Assembly: GCF_007097155.1 (NCBI RefSeq)
Contig: NZ_VJWA01000001.1
Span: 1,831,501-1,895,500, forward strand
Reading direction: 5' to 3'
From: Glacieibacterium frigidum
GTDB taxonomy: Bacteria > Pseudomonadota > Alphaproteobacteria > Sphingomonadales > Sphingomonadaceae
DNA length: 64,000 nucleotides
Translations under genes and position numbers: made by a program
Notes under the pieces: model-generated
The model's input: the letters and a program-made list of their open reading frames with translations, nothing else
Databases searched by the model: none
What the model was told of the DNA's origin: nothing
In this document: in pieces, positions 4,441 to 15,794 of the stretch
How positions within the stretch are numbered: the stretch's first letter is position 1
Layout: each line of letters begins with the position of its first letter

Positions 4441-4639
4441 TGGCCGCTCCCCCGCTGATTGGATTTGTCGGGCGGATAGGCCCCGCAGGCGGACGCGGCA
4501 AGCCGGTCGTGCAGCCCGTTCAGCCGATCATCGGCGATTGCACGACGCCGTGCTTCGATTAACATACGCAGTGCGTTCATCCGCTAGCCACGCTGGTCGA
4601 TGCAGATTCATAGTCAGACGACTGCCCGAGAGGATCACC

Positions 4640-5725
4640 ATGAAGTTCGCCAATCTTGTGCTGCTGGCCACCGCCCTGACCGCTGCCGTGCCTGCCGCCG
4701 CCGCCGTGTCGACCGCGGTCGGCCGCCAGCTCAGCATCGCACGCAACGCCAGCGGTGCCGCCGCAATCACCGCGATCAACAATGCCCGCGCCGCCGCGCG
4801 CACGCCCGAGGAGCGCACCAAGGTCTCGCAGATGGCGGCCTATGTTTACACCAAGGCGGGCCAGTACGGCCGCGCGGCGCAGGAGCTGGAGGGCCTCGGT
4901 GCCCCCCCGGCGCAGCTCGCGGGCCTGTATTACAACGCCGGAAACCTCGACAAGGCGGTCAGCTACGCCAAGCGCGCGGGCGGCGAGAACATGCAGATCC
5001 TGATCGCCCAGGCCGCCACCAAGCGCGGCCGCTACGGCGAGGCGGTGACCGCCTACAACAACCTGATCAAGGCCAACGGCCCGAAGGCCGTCTATCTTGA
5101 GAACCTGTCGGGTGCGCAGTACAAGTCGGGCGACAAGAAGGGCTATCTCGTCACCACGACGCGGCTGATCCGCCAGGATCCGACGCCGGCGCGCTGGAAG
5201 GCGCTGCTGTCGAACCTGCGCCAGACGCCGATGACCCCCGATGCCAAGCTGGCGCTGTACCGCCTGATGAATCAGACGGGCACGCTCGAGCGTAACGAAG
5301 ACTATCTCGAGTTCGCCAAGCTCGCGCTGGTCGCAGGTCAGGCGGGCACCGCCAAGGAGGTCCTCGCCAAGGCCGGTTCGGTGGGCACCGACGCGATGAG
5401 CGTCCGCCTCGCCCAGGCTGCCAACCAGCGTTCGGCACAGGCGGCCGCGCAGGCCCCCAGGCTCGCCGCGTCGCCCGCGACAGCGTACGAGGCCGGCAAC
5501 GCCTATCTCGGCATCAACAACTTCGGTGCGGCGGCAGCGGCGTACGACAAGGCGATCGCGGGCGGCGGCAACAACGCCGACCCGGCGCGCCTGTTCAAGG
5601 GCATCGCGCAGCTGCGCGGCGGCCAGATCGGGCCGTCCAAGGCCAGCTTCGCGCAGGTGCCCGAGGCTTCGCCGCTGAAGGACATCGCCCAGATGTGGGG
5701 GCTCTACGCCTCGACGAAGGGATAA
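4640..5725 (+). CDS. Exported tetratricopeptide-repeat protein
   Basis: 361-residue protein with a Sec-type signal peptide (MKFANLVLLATALTAAVPAAAA) followed by TPR-like helical pairs, for example AAYVYTKAGQYGRAAQELEG and YEAGNAYLGINNFGAAAAAYDKAI, suggesting a periplasmic or cell-envelope scaffolding role. The ATG at 4640 is chosen because it begins the signal peptide and follows AGAGGA. It lies 80 nt upstream of the tubulin-like gene on the same strand, so a functional link is possible but unproven. No catalytic motif is seen. Confidence 0.75.
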   Translation: MKFANLVLLATALTAAVPAAAAVSTAVGRQLSIARNASGAAAITAINNARAAARTPEERTKVSQMAAYVYTKAGQYGRAAQELEGLGAPPAQLAGLYYNAGNLDKAVSYAKRAGGENMQILIAQAATKRGRYGEAVTAYNNLIKANGPKAVYLENLSGAQYKSGDKKGYLVTTTRLIRQDPTPARWKALLSNLRQTPMTPDAKLALYRLMNQTGTLERNEDYLEFAKLALVAGQAGTAKEVLAKAGSVGTDAMSVRLAQAANQRSAQAAAQAPRLAASPATAYEAGNAYLGINNFGAAAAAYDKAIAGGGNNADPARLFKGIAQLRGGQIGPSKASFAQVPEASPLKDIAQMWGLYASTKG

Positions 5726-5770
5726 TCGTCTTCGGCGCGGCCGAAGCCAGCGCTTTGTCTTCGAACCGTC

Positions 5771-5807
5771 ATAATACCCCCCGATAACGCGGTGACGGGG
5801 GTATTAT
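5771..5807 (+). promoter_or_regulatory. Inverted repeat enclosing the RBS and start codon of the tubulin-like gene
   Basis: Perfect 11-bp arms (ATAATACCCCC at 5771-5781 and GGGGGTATTAT at 5797-5807) are separated by 15 nt. The right arm contains the only plausible Shine-Dalgarno (GGGGG) and the first two bases of the ATG at 5806. In RNA this hairpin would hide the start; in DNA it could be an operator for a dimeric repressor. It could also terminate the upstream TPR transcript, although no U tract follows the stem. Confidence 0.65.
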
Positions 5808-8763
5808 GAATCATTTGATTATCGGGCTTGGCGGAACGGGCGGGAAAGTCATCCGCGCGTTCCGCAAGCAGGTCTACGCCGAGTACCGCGCCGTCGCACC
5901 GGCGGGGCTCGACGTCGGCTATCTCTACGTCGATTCGGACCCCGACGAGTTCAAGCCCGACCAGGCCGACTGGAAGGTGCTGGGCACCTCGGTCCAGCTG
6001 CCCGTCGCCAGCCAGCTCAACATCACCGGCGAGAACCTCGGCGCGCGGCTGAAGGACATCCAGTCCTACCCCGGCATCAAGCCGTGGATCGGCGACCGCA
6101 CGGCGTGGGGCGAGATCATCGGCGCGATCGTCGGCGCCGCACTCGGCGGCCAGAAGCGCCGCCTGGGCCGCTTCCTGTTCGCCTGCAAGATCGACAAGTT
6201 CCGCGAGCAGGTCCAGTCGCAGGTCCGCACCCTGCAGGGCAACGGCCGCACCGACATTACCTTCCACGTCGTCGCGGGCCTCGCCGGCGGCACGGGGTCG
6301 GGGACGATCGTCGATACCGTCGCGCAGCTGCGCGCCATGTACAACGACGCGCAGCGCCATCGCATCGTTCTCTACCTGCTGCTGCCCGAGGAGTTTCCGC
6401 AGCCCAACTGGGACAGCGGCAATTATCATTCCAACGGCTATGCGGCGCTCGTCGAGCTCAACGCGCTGTCGACCGGCGCGTATCATCCGGTCGACCTCGT
6501 CACCGGCAACCGCCTCGCGCTCGGCGACCCGTTCAACGGCGCCTATGTCTTCGGCAACGAGAACGAAAACGGCTACCAGGCCGACGTCAAGAACGAGCTG
6601 CCGGGCATCGTCGGCGACTATCTCTTCCAGAAGATCGCGGTCGCCGACAAGGTCGGCTGGAAATCGCTCGGCCGCATGGAGAATGCCGAGAACGGCGACG
6701 GCACGCCCGAGACGACCCCCGGCGCCCGCGTCGGCGAGCGGTCGAAGCGCTTCCTGTCGTTCGGCATCAAGCGCATCGCCATCCCCGAGGAGGAGATCGG
6801 CGAGTATCTGAGCCTCAACTTCGCGCGCGCCGCGATCCAGCAGTTGCGCAGCAACAATTGGCAGGACGGCCAGGGCTTCGTCGACAGCGTCCGCAACATC
6901 GACACCGCGAGTTTCGTGCGCGAGGCCGAGACGCTGGGCCGCTGGCTGCTGACCGACGAGCATCTGACCCTGTCGGTCCCGATCCTGCAGGCCGACGACC
7001 CCAACAAGCGCTGGCGCGCGCTCGGCGACGAGTGGGACGGCGCGATGACGACGTTCAAGTCGATGGTTCGCGACGGGCCGCCCCCGGGCTGGCTCGACGA
7101 GCTCCACAAATACGCCGTCAAGCGCTTCGATGAGGGCTTCCGCAACGCCGGCGTGCCGTCCTTCTATCGCACCAAGGCGATGGCCAAGCGCGACATGGCG
7201 CGCGAGGTCCGCGGGCGGGTCGAGCGCGAGCTGTTCGACGACTGGCGCAACGGCACCCGCTCGGCGACCGAAGTGTCGCGCGTGCTGGGTGACCTGACCA
7301 GCCTGCTGACCGACCGGCTGCAGGGCATCGACGGCGTCGTGGCGCGCGAGCGCGAGGCGGCCGAAGCGGCGAACGAGGCGCTGCGCATCGTCCAGCAGCG
7401 CTGGGCGAGCATGGGCCTGCTCGGCCGCATGGTCGGCAACCGCAACAACCTGCTCGACGAATACGGCCTGCAGCTGCGCGAGCATTTCGTGCGCCGCACC
7501 CGCGTCGAGGCGTGGATGGTCGGCAAGACGATCCTGGGCGAGGTGCTGACCGAGCTCGCCGACCTGCGCGCGATCGTCGATCAGATCATCGCGACGATGC
7601 AGGACGCGCTGACCCGCGTCGGTGCCGGCATCGATGCACGGCTGAAGACCGGCGGCGGCGACGACATCAAGGGCCACCTCGTCCGCTTCTACGATCCCGA
7701 GCTGGTCCGCACGGTGACGCGCGAGCTGGTGCTCGACCAGGTCCAGCAGGCGACCCAGACCGCCAAGGTGCGCGCCGCGCTGATCGAGCGCGCCGGGCCC
7801 AACCCGGGCTTCCAGGCCTTCCGCGACCGCGTCGGGCTGGGCGACATGGTTGACCGCATCGAGGCGGTGGCCGAGGACAATGCCCGCGTCGCGCACGATA
7901 CGCTGGTGATCGACGTCAAGCGCCGCATCCTCGGCGTCTCGATCATCGCCAAGCTGCGCGAGCGCTTCGGCGGTGACCGCCAGGCGCTGGGGGCCTATGT
8001 CGCCAATCTGGTGCGGGAGGCCGGCTGCTACCTGACCGTCAACCCGCTGGAGAGCGGCAAGTCGGGGCCGGGTATCCCGGCGGGCGTCCAGACGCTCGTC
8101 CAGAAATGGATCGTCGTGCTGCCCAAGGCGACCGAGCACGCCGCCTTCGTCGCCGACCTGAAGACGGCGTTCAGGGACGCCCAGCCCGGCGACCTCGAGT
8201 TCATCGAAGCCGACGGCCGCGCCAACGAAATCACCATGATCGCGGTCAAGAACCTGTTCCCGCTGCGCTATCTGAAGGTGCTGCCGTTCCTGAAGGCGAA
8301 GTACGAGACGCGCATCGCCGCCAACCCGGCGCGCTTCGCCCTCGAGCTCCATACCGAGGGCAGCATCGACAGCTATCCGTCGCTGTACGTCCGCAGCGGC
8401 GACGAGCTGCGCCGCGATGCACTCGCGCTGGTGCTGATCGGACGCGGGCTGGGCATCGTCCAGGACGACCCCAAGGGGCCGACCTATCTGGGCCGCGACG
8501 CGGACGGGTTCGAGGCGCCGCCCGTGCGGCTCGGCACGTCGCTGCTCGTCGCCGCGGAGGGCATCGACGACAAGCTCTATGCGCAGCTCAAGGCCGACAT
8601 CGACGCGGGGCTGGCCAAGCTCGACGACCTCGAGCCGGTCAAGGGGGCGATCCGCACGGCGCCCGACATCATCAAGCCGCTGGTCGGCGGGGATGTCGCG
8701 GACCCGCGCTACCGCGCCGTCGTCGAAGCCGCCAAGGCGGCACTCATGATCATCCGGAGATAG
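5806..8763 (+). CDS. Large tubulin/FtsZ-like GTPase-domain protein (Tubulin_2 family)
   Basis: 985-residue cytoplasmic protein. The N-terminus MNHLIIGLGGTGGKVIRAFR and the tubulin signature GGTGSGT at residues 161-167 place it in the tubulin-like superfamily (Pfam Tubulin_2), which binds GTP through this loop. Most of the remaining ~750 residues are charged and helix-rich with no recognised domain and may form an extended arm. No signal peptide or membrane segment is seen. It is followed after only 3 nt by a zinc ribbon-TM-PBP-OmpA protein, so the two are very probably one translational unit. The cellular role is unknown; families of this type have been noted near tellurite/stress gene clusters. 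Confidence 0.82.
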   Translation: MNHLIIGLGGTGGKVIRAFRKQVYAEYRAVAPAGLDVGYLYVDSDPDEFKPDQADWKVLGTSVQLPVASQLNITGENLGARLKDIQSYPGIKPWIGDRTAWGEIIGAIVGAALGGQKRRLGRFLFACKIDKFREQVQSQVRTLQGNGRTDITFHVVAGLAGGTGSGTIVDTVAQLRAMYNDAQRHRIVLYLLLPEEFPQPNWDSGNYHSNGYAALVELNALSTGAYHPVDLVTGNRLALGDPFNGAYVFGNENENGYQADVKNELPGIVGDYLFQKIAVADKVGWKSLGRMENAENGDGTPETTPGARVGERSKRFLSFGIKRIAIPEEEIGEYLSLNFARAAIQQLRSNNWQDGQGFVDSVRNIDTASFVREAETLGRWLLTDEHLTLSVPILQADDPNKRWRALGDEWDGAMTTFKSMVRDGPPPGWLDELHKYAVKRFDEGFRNAGVPSFYRTKAMAKRDMAREVRGRVERELFDDWRNGTRSATEVSRVLGDLTSLLTDRLQGIDGVVAREREAAEAANEALRIVQQRWASMGLLGRMVGNRNNLLDEYGLQLREHFVRRTRVEAWMVGKTILGEVLTELADLRAIVDQIIATMQDALTRVGAGIDARLKTGGGDDIKGHLVRFYDPELVRTVTRELVLDQVQQATQTAKVRAALIERAGPNPGFQAFRDRVGLGDMVDRIEAVAEDNARVAHDTLVIDVKRRILGVSIIAKLRERFGGDRQALGAYVANLVREAGCYLTVNPLESGKSGPGIPAGVQTLVQKWIVVLPKATEHAAFVADLKTAFRDAQPGDLEFIEADGRANEITMIAVKNLFPLRYLKVLPFLKAKYETRIAANPARFALELHTEGSIDSYPSLYVRSGDELRRDALALVLIGRGLGIVQDDPKGPTYLGRDADGFEAPPVRLGTSLLVAAEGIDDKLYAQLKADIDAGLAKLDDLEPVKGAIRTAPDIIKPLVGGDVADPRYRAVVEAAKAALMIIRR

Positions 8764-8766
8764 GCA

Positions 8767-10305
8767 ATGGCGGGGGAACGGCGCGGCAAGTGCGTCAACA
8801 TCGGAAACTGCAGCCTCGCCGACAAGCGCGAGATCATCGAGGTCAAGCCGGGTGCGGACTTCGTCTGCACCGAATGCGGCAAGGGGCTGATCGTCGCGCG
8901 TGAGGCGGGCGGCGACGGCATCCCGAAATGGGCGATCGCCGCGGGCCTCGCGGTGCTGCTGCTCGTCGCCGGCTGGTTCGCCTGGGGCGCGCTGAGCGGC
9001 GACAAGACATCCGATACGACGCAGGTCGCGAAGGGTGAGGTGCCGCCGCCGCCCGCGACCGAGGCCGAGCCGCTGCTCCGCCTCGGCGGGTCGAACACCA
9101 TCGGCGACAAGCTCGCGCCCGCGCTGGCCGAGGCGTGGCTGAAAAGCCGCGGCTGCGCCAGTGTCGAGCGGCAGACGCCCGGCAACGACGAGATCGTGCT
9201 GTCGTGCGAGGCCGACGGCAAGCCGCAGATCGTCACGGTGAGTGCGCACGGCACCAAGACCGGCTTTTCCGGCCTGAAGTCGGGCAGCTACGACATCGCC
9301 ATGGCGTCGGACAAGATCGACGGAAGCCAGAAGAGCGATCTCGCCGCCCTCAACCCGCGCGAGCATGTCATCGCGCTCGACGGCATCGCGGTCATCGTCA
9401 ACCCGGGCAGCCGCGTCGCGCAGCTGACGATCGATCAGGTCGCCGGGCTGTTCTCGGGTGCGATCACCGACTGGTCGCAGGTCGGCGGCGCGCCGGGGGC
9501 GGTGCAGGTCTATGCCCGCGACGACAACTCGGGGACGTGGAAATATTTCAAGACGGCGATCCTCGACAACGCCGGCACGACGCTGGTCGGCAACGCCAAG
9601 CGGTTCGAGAAGGGCAGCGAGCTTGCCGACGGTGTCGTCTCCGATCCCAACGGCATCGGCTTCGTCGGCCTGACCTCGGCGGGCGCCGCGCGCGCCGTCG
9701 CGCTCGCGCCGGCGGGTGCCGTCGCGCTGTTCCCGACGCGCTTCACGGTGGGCCGGGAGGATTATGCGCTGTCGCGGCGCATGTACCTCTACACCGCCGC
9801 GACACCAGCCAAGCCCGATGTCACGCGCTTCCTCAGCTTCATCGCCTCCCCGGAAGGCCAGGCGGTAGCCGAGAAGCAGGGCTTCGTGCCCCGCACCATC
9901 GAGGGCGAGAAGGTGGAGCAGGCGCCCGACGTCGCGCCCCCGGGCTATGCCGCGCTGACCCGCGGCGCGATGCGCCTGTCGACCAACTTCCGCTTCGAGA
10001 CCGGCAGCGCCGATCTCGACACCAAGGCCTTGAGCGAATCCGACTATGTCGAGCGCTTCCTGACCGACAACCGCTTCGACCCCAGCCGGCTGATGCTGTT
10101 CGGCTTCACCGACAACAAGGGCGGCGACGGCATCAACTGCCCGCTGTCGCGCCAGCGTGCCGCGACCGTCGCCGCGACGCTGCGGTCGCGCGGCCTGCAA
10201 CCGCGCACGGTCGAGGGTTTCTGCTCGGCGCTGCCGGTGGCGGACAACAGCAGTGCCGACGGCCAGGCGCGCAATCGCCGTGTCGAGGTGTGGATCGGGC
10301 GCTGA
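8767..10305 (+). CDS. Zinc ribbon / TM / PstS-like substrate-binding / OmpA-domain protein
   Basis: 512 residues with an unusual domain order. Residues 1-45 form a zinc ribbon (Cys9, Cys15, Cys34, Cys37), 54-76 a single transmembrane helix, about 88-345 a phosphate-binding-protein-like fold ([33 protein letters not shown]), and about 400-512 an OmpA-type peptidoglycan-binding domain ([11 protein letters not shown] ... NRRVEVWI). The expected topology is a cytoplasmic zinc ribbon with PBP and OmpA domains in the periplasm. With the preceding tubulin-like GTPase it could link a cytoplasmic polymer to the cell wall. A 7-bp GC hairpin (10318-10342) follows but lacks a T tract. Confidence 0.82.
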
Positions 10306-13916: not shown

Positions 13917-15233
13917 ATGGCCGATCTCTTCGCCGCCGACCCGCCCGCCGATGGCCCCGCCCTGCCCGGCCAGCCGCTCGCCGAGCGGCTGCGCCCGCGC
14001 GCGCTGGACGAGGTCGTGGGCCAGGAGCATCTGACCGGCCCCGACGGCGCGATCGGGCGGATGGTCGCCGCGGGCAAGCTGGCATCGCTGATTCTGTGGG
14101 GACCACCGGGGACGGGCAAGACGACGATCGCGCGGCTGCTCGCAGATGCGGTGGGCCTGCGCTTCGTGATGATCTCGGCGGTGTTCTCGGGCGTCGCCGA
14201 CCTGAAGAAGCTGTTCGCCGAGGCGCGCGCCGCGGCCCGCGCCGGCCAGCGCACTTTGCTCTTCGTCGACGAGATCCACCGCTTCAATCGCGCTCAGCAG
14301 GACGGCTTCCTGCCCTATGTCGAGGACGGCACGATCACCCTCGTCGGTGCGACGACCGAGAACCCCAGCTTCGAGCTGAACGCCGCGCTCCTCAGCCGCG
14401 CGCAGGTGCTGATCGTCCGGCGCCTCGATGCAGCCGCGCTCGACGCGCTGCTTGGGCGTGCCGAGGCGATCGAGGGCCGCACTTTGCCCCTGACGCCGGC
14501 GGCGCGCGAGGCGCTGGTCGCGTCCGCCGATGGCGACGGGCGCTTCCTGCTCAACCAGGTCGAGACGCTGTTTTCGATTGCCATCGACGCGCCGCTCGAT
14601 CCGGGCGCGCTCGGCGAGCTGCTCCACCGCCGCGTCGCGGTCTACGACAAGGACCGCGAGGGGCATTACAACCTGATCTCGGCGCTGCACAAATCCCTGC
14701 GCGGTTCGGACCCCGACGCGTCGCTCTACTATCTGGCGCGCATGCTGACCGCCGGCGAGGAGCCGCTGTACGTGCTGCGCCGCCTCGTGCGCTTCGCCAG
14801 CGAGGACATCGGGCTGGCGGATTCGAACGCGCTTGTGGTGACGCTCGCGGCGAAGGAGTCGTACGACTTCCTGGGGTCGCCCGAGGGCGAACTGGCGATT
14901 GCGCACGCCTGCCTCTACCTCGCCACCGCGCCGAAATCGAACGCGGCGTATGTCGCGCAGAAGAGCGCGTGGCGGTCGGCGAAGGAGACGGGCTCGCTGA
15001 TGCCTCCCGCCAACATCCTCAACGCGCCGACCCGCCTGATGAAGGACATCGGCTACGGCAAGGGCTACGCCTACGACCACGACGCCGAGGGCGGCTTTTC
15101 GGGCGCGAACTACTGGCCCGCCGAGATGAACCCGCAGAGTTTCTACGCGCCGACCGACCGGGGTCATGAGAAGCGCATCGGCGAACGGCTCGCGGCGTGG
15201 GCGGCGCTGAGGCGTGGCGGGGATGGTGGATAG
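13917..15233 (+). CDS. rarA: Replication-associated recombination AAA+ ATPase RarA (MgsA)
   Basis: Clamp-loader-like AAA+ ATPase acting at stalled or broken replication forks. The 438 residues contain Walker A GPPGTGKTT, Walker B LLFVDEIHRFN, sensor 1 GATTENPSFELN and the C-terminal tetramerisation region (YHLxS-type helices, GSDPDASLYYLARML). It is divergent from the FNT gene. The ATG at 13917 matches the family N-terminus (MADLF, PLAERLRP). Confidence 0.96.
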   Translation: MADLFAADPPADGPALPGQPLAERLRPRALDEVVGQEHLTGPDGAIGRMVAAGKLASLILWGPPGTGKTTIARLLADAVGLRFVMISAVFSGVADLKKLFAEARAAARAGQRTLLFVDEIHRFNRAQQDGFLPYVEDGTITLVGATTENPSFELNAALLSRAQVLIVRRLDAAALDALLGRAEAIEGRTLPLTPAAREALVASADGDGRFLLNQVETLFSIAIDAPLDPGALGELLHRRVAVYDKDREGHYNLISALHKSLRGSDPDASLYYLARMLTAGEEPLYVLRRLVRFASEDIGLADSNALVVTLAAKESYDFLGSPEGELAIAHACLYLATAPKSNAAYVAQKSAWRSAKETGSLMPPANILNAPTRLMKDIGYGKGYAYDHDAEGGFSGANYWPAEMNPQSFYAPTDRGHEKRIGERLAAWAALRRGGDGG

Positions 15234-15249
15234 GGGTTATATCGGCCGA

Positions 15250-15471
15250 ATGATGGACCGCATCGTATCCACGCCGGGCGTCCGGAGCGGGAAGCCGTGC
15301 ATTCGCGGCACGCGCATCACGGTCGTGGATATGCTCGAGTATATGGCGGGCGGCGATACCATCCCGGACTTGCTCGAAGATTTTACCGAGCTGTCGCGCG
15401 AGGATTTGCTGGCCTGCCTCGCCTACGCCGCCGAACAGCTGAATCATGAGCAGAGCATCGCCGCCGAATGA
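15250..15471 (+). CDS. DUF433 antitoxin-like protein
   Basis: 73-residue protein with the DUF433 pattern RIVSTPGVRSGKPCIRGTRI, VVDMLEYMAGG and ILLEDF-type sequence. DUF433 proteins carry an HTH-like fold and are commonly the antitoxin partner of DUF5615 PIN-like genes. The start may be either of two adjacent Met codons (15250 or 15253). Its stop overlaps the start of the next gene in an ATGA, as expected for a coupled toxin-antitoxin pair. Confidence 0.87.
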   Translation: MMDRIVSTPGVRSGKPCIRGTRITVVDMLEYMAGGDTIPDLLEDFTELSREDLLACLAYAAEQLNHEQSIAAE

Positions 15472-15794
15472 GGTTTCTCGTCGACGAGAACCTGCCCCGG
15501 CGGATGGCGGCTGCCTTGGTCACGCTCGGCCACGAAGCAGAGCACTGCACCCATGTGGTCGGGCGCTCCGCTGACGATGGAGCGATCTGGCGACATGCAA
15601 TGGCTGTCGGGGCGATCATCGTCACCAAGGATGACGACTATCTGGCGTTCCTTGCTGGTACGCCCCCGTTCACACCCGTCGTCTGGCTGCGGATCGGCAA
15701 CTGCTCGCGTGCCGAGGCGATCGAGCGGGTGGTCAGCAATCTCGATACGATCGCGACGGCAGTCGAGGCGGGGCGCCTGCTGATCGAGCTATGA
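15468..15794 (+). CDS. DUF5615 PIN-like toxin candidate
   Basis: 108-residue protein beginning MRFLVDENLPRRMA, with acidic residues in DENL and TKDDDY that form the predicted metal site of the PIN-like (Mut7-C) nuclease fold. It overlaps the DUF433 gene by 4 nt upstream and the next gene by 4 nt downstream. RNase toxicity is inferred from the family and the gene pair and is not shown for this protein. Confidence 0.85.
   Translation: MRFLVDENLPRRMAAALVTLGHEAEHCTHVVGRSADDGAIWRHAMAVGAIIVTKDDDYLAFLAGTPPFTPVVWLRIGNCSRAEAIERVVSNLDTIATAVEAGRLLIEL

Follow-up and report, generated by a model that had tools for sequence, protein, structure and literature searches.

A tubulin-like GTPase of the FtsZl1 family and its ribbon-TM partner: a possible trans-envelope module with exchangeable outer parts

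A tubulin-like GTPase of the FtsZl1 family and the product of the gene directly downstream may form a two-gene module that spans the bacterial envelope. In the window (i.e., the entire 64,000-nt stretch of DNA analyzed here), both genes lie on the + strand, namely, the GTPase gene at 5806..8763 (985 aa) and the partner gene at 8767..10305 (512 aa), with 3 nt between the stop codon of the first and the ATG of the second. The partner contains, in order, a four-cysteine (Cys4) ribbon, a single transmembrane (TM) helix, a PstS-like periplasmic binding protein (PBP) domain, and an OmpA-type peptidoglycan-binding domain. At related loci, the ribbon-TM stem stays linked to the tubulin gene, and the outer part is exchanged. 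Our preferred reading, which is held tentatively, is that the partner acts as a one-pass adaptor at the inner membrane, where it would recruit the GTPase or control it depending on a periplasmic ligand. FtsZl1 proteins were recognized from their sequences in 2010, and no described function was found for them in the open-licence literature. If correct, the proposed module would represent a new way for a tubulin GTPase to be coupled to a ligand outside the bacterial cell.

The initial annotation of this region had described a 985-residue protein carrying GGTGSGT and a second gene 3 nt downstream, and both descriptions hold. The first protein matches Pfam Tubulin_2 (PF13809) over residues 4-344 (E 2.8e-62; 211.5 bits versus a cut-off of 27), the only other match in the Pfam scan being a sub-cut-off one to Tubulin; the FtsZ_C domain (PF12327) was absent. 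It is encoded by the only Tubulin_2 gene of the genome, which encodes a canonical FtsZ elsewhere (G000:C1:595382), and is thus an extra tubulin-superfamily protein. Among 59 aligned GTPases, the glycine-rich N-terminal loop (T1-like; residues 9-14, GGTGGK; 5830..5847, +) is conserved at G9-G13 in 59/59 and at K14 in 54/59. One of the two peptide patterns used to collect relatives overlaps this first loop (GGTGG, residues 9-13), so that only the second GTP loop provides unbiased evidence. In this second loop, the tubulin/FtsZ signature (T4; residues 158-167, GLAGGTGSGT; 6277..6306, +), G161, G164, and G166 are found in 59/59, G162 and T163 in 58/59, and S165 in 57/59; the loss of the GTP-binding loop in homologues, considered in the initial annotation, is therefore not seen. 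A candidate T7-like motif at residues 295-302 (E295 N296 G D298 ... E302; 6688..6711, +; N296 in 58/59, E302 in 59/59) is assigned from its position before the strand 316-325. Sequence comparison reaches little further: with hhalign, only 13 columns around T4 were aligned to a set of 13 FtsZ proteins (probability 5.7), and a search by sequence for relatives with solved structures returned none (best E 0.32).

The predicted structure of the GTPase (pLDDT 90.7, pTM 0.80), a calculation that the initial annotation had proposed, agrees with CetZ and tubulin across both of their domains. CetZ (3zid_B) aligns with Z 27.1 and an rmsd of 3.5 over 302/342 residues (model range 1-843), and tubulins align with Z 24-25 over model residues 1-862; overall, the structural alignments run from model residue 1 to 843-865, at 11-17% identity to the matched structures. 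The layout is read as a GTPase domain (1-~348), a helical insertion (~350-760), and a tubulin C-terminal domain (~765-848). The insertion of ~415 residues (6853..8085, +) is delimited by the secondary structure of the model and the alignment ranges, and it contains the long helices 487-534 and 545-611. The putative C-terminal domain (8098..8349, +) shows the order strand-helix-strand-strand-helix, and tubulin chains align to their C-terminal ends; the names of its elements are our own inference from the model. The GTPase model thus shares the fold of both domains with CetZ and tubulins and differs from them by the large insertion and by a central helix H7 that is short or missing.

The family itself was described as FtsZl1 by Makarova and Koonin in 2010 (PMC2875224) and corresponds to Tubulin_2. 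In the main text of that paper, its members share with the window's protein a GTPase domain with the GGTGSG loop, a coiled-coil and helical C-terminal region, coexistence with canonical FtsZ, and, in several genomes, OmpA-domain neighbors. The coiled-coil/helical region after the GTPase domain is recovered in the model presented here as helices 487-534, 545-611, and others. The 2010 authors did not find the C-terminal tubulin domain and T6-H7 in FtsZl1, and an objection raised at the time was that elements for filament formation were apparently missing; the C-terminal domain predicted behind the large insertion would answer the objection of the missing domain. Tubulin_2 proteins were set aside in a study of how FtsZ and tubulin evolved, published in 2023 (PMC9871819).

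The order of domains given for the partner in the initial annotation is likewise upheld. The Cys4 ribbon (residues 9-41, predicted cytoplasmic; 8791..8889, +) has C9, C15, C34, and C37 invariant in 17 PBP-OmpA homologues and in 29 ribbons. No Pfam match better than E 0.079 was obtained with the window's ribbon copy, and solved structures gave only generic zinc-finger matches, which are likely due to chance and were discarded. One TM helix is placed at residues 54-76 by the model (8926..8994, +; pLDDT 87.3 for the whole partner) and at 56-74 by hydropathy. Among 75 ribbon proteins for which a TM helix was called, 48 have more Arg+Lys in the 15 residues preceding the helix than in those following it, and 10 have fewer, which fits a predicted cytoplasmic N terminus; the trans-envelope topology put forward in the initial annotation is not contradicted.

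On the predicted periplasmic side, residues 103-376 (9073..9894, +) adopt the PstS fold in the model (Z 25.9 to 1twy_B, rmsd 2.2, 241 aligned residues; PF12849, E 1.2e-25), and PstS proteins overall match with Z 20 to 26. Residues 251-257, RDDNSGT, conform to RDxxSGT, which we take to be the phosphate-holding motif in E. coli PstS. Judging by this motif, phosphate is the likely ligand of the window's domain. The motif is kept in 11/18 aligned rows, is RNxxSGT in L063, is changed in L064, and is lost in all five Methylacidiphilaceae rows, and phosphate is therefore not general to PBP-OmpA partners. The OmpA-type domain (residues 404-511; 9976..10299, +) is recognized by PF00691 (E 4.3e-11; 43.5 bits versus a cut-off of 27.2) and by its modeled OmpA/Pal fold (Z 14.6 to 4g4v; Pal/YfiB domains at Z near 14). 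Its residues D449 and R464, presumably the counterpart of the diaminopimelate-binding pair, are invariant in 17 homologues. In PADLOC, this domain also matches models of ZorB from the Zorya defence system (E 6e-9), probably a mere reflection of the OmpA/MotB domain.

Conservation of the pair was assessed at 85 tubulin loci, comprising the best 80 of 226 relatives found by scanning genome contigs with the two peptide patterns, one plasmid locus, three further loci, and the window. Owing to this selection, the survey samples one subfamily; the best 80 loci belong to Pseudomonadota, Bacteroidota, Verrucomicrobiota, and Acidobacteriota, with single loci of other phyla. Genes at these loci were predicted by a simple purpose-made gene caller, and at three loci the sequence stops at or within the tubulin gene, leaving 82 assessable. 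Kept outside the 85 were the more distant Tubulin_2 loci L019-L022. At two of these (L019:3277-6411 and L022:2734-6329), the Tubulin_2 gene has a neighbor encoding a long protein that shows HSP70 or MreB/Ppx-like matches, i.e., an actin-fold partner for a tubulin-fold protein.

A profile of the ribbon part finds a ribbon gene downstream of the tubulin gene, on the same strand and within 1 kb, at 74 of the 82 assessable loci; 69 of these 74 genes begin within 250 nt of the tubulin gene (median gap 21 nt). The ribbon gene is divergent and upstream of the tubulin gene at three further loci, and at L096 a Cys-rich start of the partner was recognized by eye only, on which basis that locus is counted as ribbon-bearing. 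No ribbon gene was found at four of the 82 loci (L057, L062, L085, and L107). At the first of these, Tubulin_2 is fused C-terminally to an nSTAND6-type ATPase (L057:7932-12077), and at the second the tubulin has an extra 560 N-terminal residues (L062:6309-10601). Among the 77 partners found by the profile, the Cys4 pattern lies close to the start in 69, and hydropathy indicates a TM helix in 75; the pattern occurs in 1/670 other neighbor genes, counted after removal of second ribbon genes (10 loci). The pairing of tubulin and ribbon is far above chance. The profile was trained on 54 of the partner genes themselves, and in a held-out test it recovered 54/54 seeds, with relatives of the held-out seeds remaining in training. 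In the Methylacidiphilaceae, a second ribbon-TM gene follows at L042:12701-14380, with glycine-zipper matches below cut-off, and at the same place in L043, L044, L045, L047, and L052.

The phylum-wide view narrows this linkage to part of the family. Of 398 genomes sampled from the phylum, three match the ribbon profile, namely, the window's genome, G699 (where the ribbon follows directly after the tubulin gene), and G812 (which has a ribbon without Tubulin_2). Ribbon and Tubulin_2 thus occur together in 2/3 ribbon genomes, with Tubulin_2 present in 8/398 (P 0.001; 0.035 without the window's genome). Since six of the eight Tubulin_2 genomes are without a ribbon match, the ribbon is a mark of one subfamily and not of FtsZl1 at large. 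No ribbon was seen at L157-L159.

What follows the TM helix varies among the loci. PBP-OmpA, as in the window, is found at 20 loci. At 12, the ribbon-TM protein is short, and an NMT1-like binding protein is encoded separately after it (Pfam-tested in L039, and labeled by BLAST clustering in the other 11). A vWA-like part is found at three, all weak calls (L016 by eye, with no family listed by Pfam; L058 and L096 by matches just below cut-off), and other parts at 40, e.g., an FGE-sulfatase domain in L060 and Ig-like repeats in L061. In total, 32/82 loci have a binding protein of one of two kinds, either PstS-like and fused or NMT1-like and separate. At L031, the OmpA part lies in a different frame from the PBP part. 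On a quick tubulin tree (no mixture model, long branches flagged, and L076, L080, L084, and L088 excluded), a minimum of 8 label changes is needed to separate PBP-OmpA from everything else, and a minimum of 15 when every class is kept apart. The outer part is exchangeable, PstS/OmpA being one version among several.

PBP-OmpA proteins also occur on their own. In the phylum, 41/398 genomes have a PBP-OmpA match at E 1e-30 or better; 40 of these 41 are without Tubulin_2, and in those 40 the match starts at query residue 68 or later, omitting the ribbon. Likewise, the ribbon was not seen at the N termini of 20 free-standing PBP-OmpA proteins (L110-L129), most of which are signal-peptide-like; L121 has a CxxC, probably in an upstream extension of the ORF. 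These proteins, annotated as 'phosphate ABC transporter substrate-binding/OmpA family protein', share the PBP and OmpA domains with the window's partner (~38-43% identity for the best matches) and differ in being without the ribbon, in a signal-peptide-like or other N terminus, and in being tubulin-free in 40/40 genomes. Tubulin-linked partners accordingly look like periplasmic PBP-OmpA proteins that were given a ribbon-TM stem. Independent occurrence of the two genes, a point that the initial annotation had raised against its own model, is thus real for the PBP-OmpA half and does not extend to the ribbon-TM half. As the ribbon-TM part follows the tubulin gene at most loci and PBP-OmpA mostly occurs without tubulin, the unit is the tubulin plus the ribbon-TM adaptor. 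In all three related genomes inspected (L161, L164, and L165), the gene for a free-standing PBP-OmpA protein is flanked by a TerC-family gene (confirmed with Pfam in L161 only) and an exonuclease III-like gene (called by eye).

The exchange of outer parts also bears on a structural role, in which the adaptor would merely anchor GTPase filaments to peptidoglycan for membrane remodeling or vesicle formation, as proposed by Makarova and Koonin (PMC2875224), and the PstS-like domain would not sense anything. The invariant D449 and R464 and the OmpA neighbors already reported in 2010 (PMC2875224) are what such an anchor would be expected to show. However, OmpA is present at just 20/82 assessable loci, binding-protein domains recur both with and without it, and the PstS pocket motif is retained in 11/18 rows, so that we regard pure anchoring as unlikely.

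In our preferred reading, that of an adaptor responding to a periplasmic ligand, the first protein would be a cytoplasmic tubulin-superfamily GTPase of the FtsZl1 type, which the cytoplasmic Cys4 ribbon may dock or control through direct contact. The TM helix is predicted to span the inner membrane, the PstS-like domain would bind phosphate or a related oxyanion on the periplasmic side, and the OmpA domain would tether the adaptor to peptidoglycan. Binding or loss of the ligand might then alter the recruitment, activity, or assembly of the GTPase at the membrane, with polymerization and an inward direction of signaling both presumed. A putative periplasmic sensor controlling the GTPase is a reasonable model, and it is strengthened by the recurrence of a second kind of binding protein, the NMT1-like one, at 12 loci. 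The observation made in the initial annotation is therefore confirmed, and its interpretation is partly supported. Because the same stem carries other outer parts in relatives, the module is proposed as a general way of linking a tubulin GTPase inside the cell to conditions outside it. A broader version, in which one-pass adaptors with exchangeable outer sensors constitute a widespread receptor class controlling tubulin GTPase assembly at the inner membrane, so that an outside-to-inside signal would have a tubulin filament as its output, with the window's sensor being phosphate-type and tied to the wall, is more doubtful; such a class is undescribed as far as the open-licence literature shows.

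Parts of this idea have precedents. In the main text of the 2010 paper (PMC2875224), a reviewer cited a TRAP-type periplasmic protein of Polaromonas and suggested transport or signaling, and the authors set such periplasmic-protein cases aside as occurrences in few organisms. A further objection raised then was that a cytoplasmic FtsZ-like protein cannot meet periplasmic or outer-membrane partners, and the paper gave no answer as to how it might reach envelope proteins; the ribbon-TM adaptor would offer a concrete one in the form of a bridge across the inner membrane. The statement of the initial annotation that no function is described for this pair holds for function as such, as far as the open-licence literature shows, and needs correcting in that the family, its OmpA neighbors, and the idea of transmembrane transport or signaling had been in print since then. 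Zinc ribbons and phosphate have no mention in that main text, and the ribbon-TM adaptor is a feature of the present analysis; Additional File 6 of the same paper lists associated families and may include it. In the open-licence literature, supplements being outside the scope of the search, neither a description of the ribbon-TM partner nor an experiment on FtsZl1 was found. The vWA, kinase, or P-loop GTPase neighbors that are reported as frequent but not obligatory in FtsZl1 operons (PMC2875224) were not found among the tested window neighbors, which are fatty-acid and ribosomal genes.

The gene contexts of some relatives raise the question of biological conflict, i.e., a defence or programmed-death system in which the tubulin assembles as a threshold switch upon invasion or envelope damage, an idea put forward for tubulins in DO-GTPase systems by Kaur et al. 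2020 (PMC7159879). According to that article, DO-GTPase/GAP1-N2 systems share with the pair a tubulin with a helical C-terminal part, zinc ribbons within the system, and adjoining membrane proteins whose outer domains bind ligands or the wall; they differ in having the ribbons on the GTPase and in a tubulin theme restricted to Firmicutes and Actinobacteria. A conflict role would suit the very patchy distribution of Tubulin_2, the TIR and nSTAND1 genes divergent from the tubulin/ribbon pair at L016:5266-8742, the tubulin-nSTAND6 fusion in L057, and the caspase-domain genes that cluster with the pair in L082, L091, L093, L097, and L109 (one clade) and in G699. Caspase-domain genes are located at L097:5684-7057 and L109:9554-10870 (both Pfam-tested) and at L155:1-396, and were assigned by clustering in L082, L091, and L093. 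Against this, no TIR, STAND, or caspase-type gene lies beside the window pair, no effector was recognized around the pair in L029-L031, and the PADLOC models gave no match for the tubulin protein, the partner matching ZorB via its OmpA domain alone. DO-GTPase/GAP1 genes were absent among the 10 scanned neighbor proteins of the window pair and the TPR gene upstream, and a DO-GTPase/GAP1 cluster was not found in three or more survey loci. On balance, a conflict role is rather improbable for the pair, though it is the strongest of the rival readings.

The window pair is bordered on one side by a TPR gene and fatty-acid synthesis genes, among them fabD, and on the other by rpsF, rpsR, and rplI. 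The TPR gene (4598-5725) was considered as a third part of the module and rejected, because it also adjoins fabD in G829, which belongs to the same genus and has no Tubulin_2, as well as in G120, whose tubulin gene is on a different contig. In the nearest relatives, L029 (67% identical), L030 (65%), and L031 (58%), the pair lies between genes that are unlike those of the window and unlike one another's. Tubulin_2 is present in 1/2 genomes of the genus, 5/196 of the order, 7/289 of the class, and 8/398 of the phylum, and the tubulin was found in 1/72,556 plasmid records.

A pattern search found a weak Pho-box-like site with three mismatches (5755..5772, +) within the 80-nt gap before the tubulin gene; it is the window's only match with up to three mismatches, where 2.01 are expected in 64 kb. 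A site with two mismatches precedes the tubulin gene in L053, and none was found in L029, L030, or L031; with 200 shuffles each, sites at p 0.05 or less occur in 2/20 PBP-OmpA loci and 0/64 other loci. Regulation of the pair by Pho is a weak lead. Together with the similarity of the PBP domain to phosphate-binding proteins (Z 20 to 26), the site would agree with an accessory role in phosphate uptake, in which a transporter would receive the ligand from the PBP and the tubulin gene would be a neighbor by coincidence. Such a role is nevertheless very improbable, as no ABC transporter genes are present among the tested window neighbors, the pair is retained in L029-L031 even though both flanks differ, and the ribbon partner is retained where the PBP is missing. 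Further downstream, at 15214-15794, the window contains a DUF433 and DUF5615 (PIN-like) gene pair, which we take to be a likely toxin-antitoxin-type unit.
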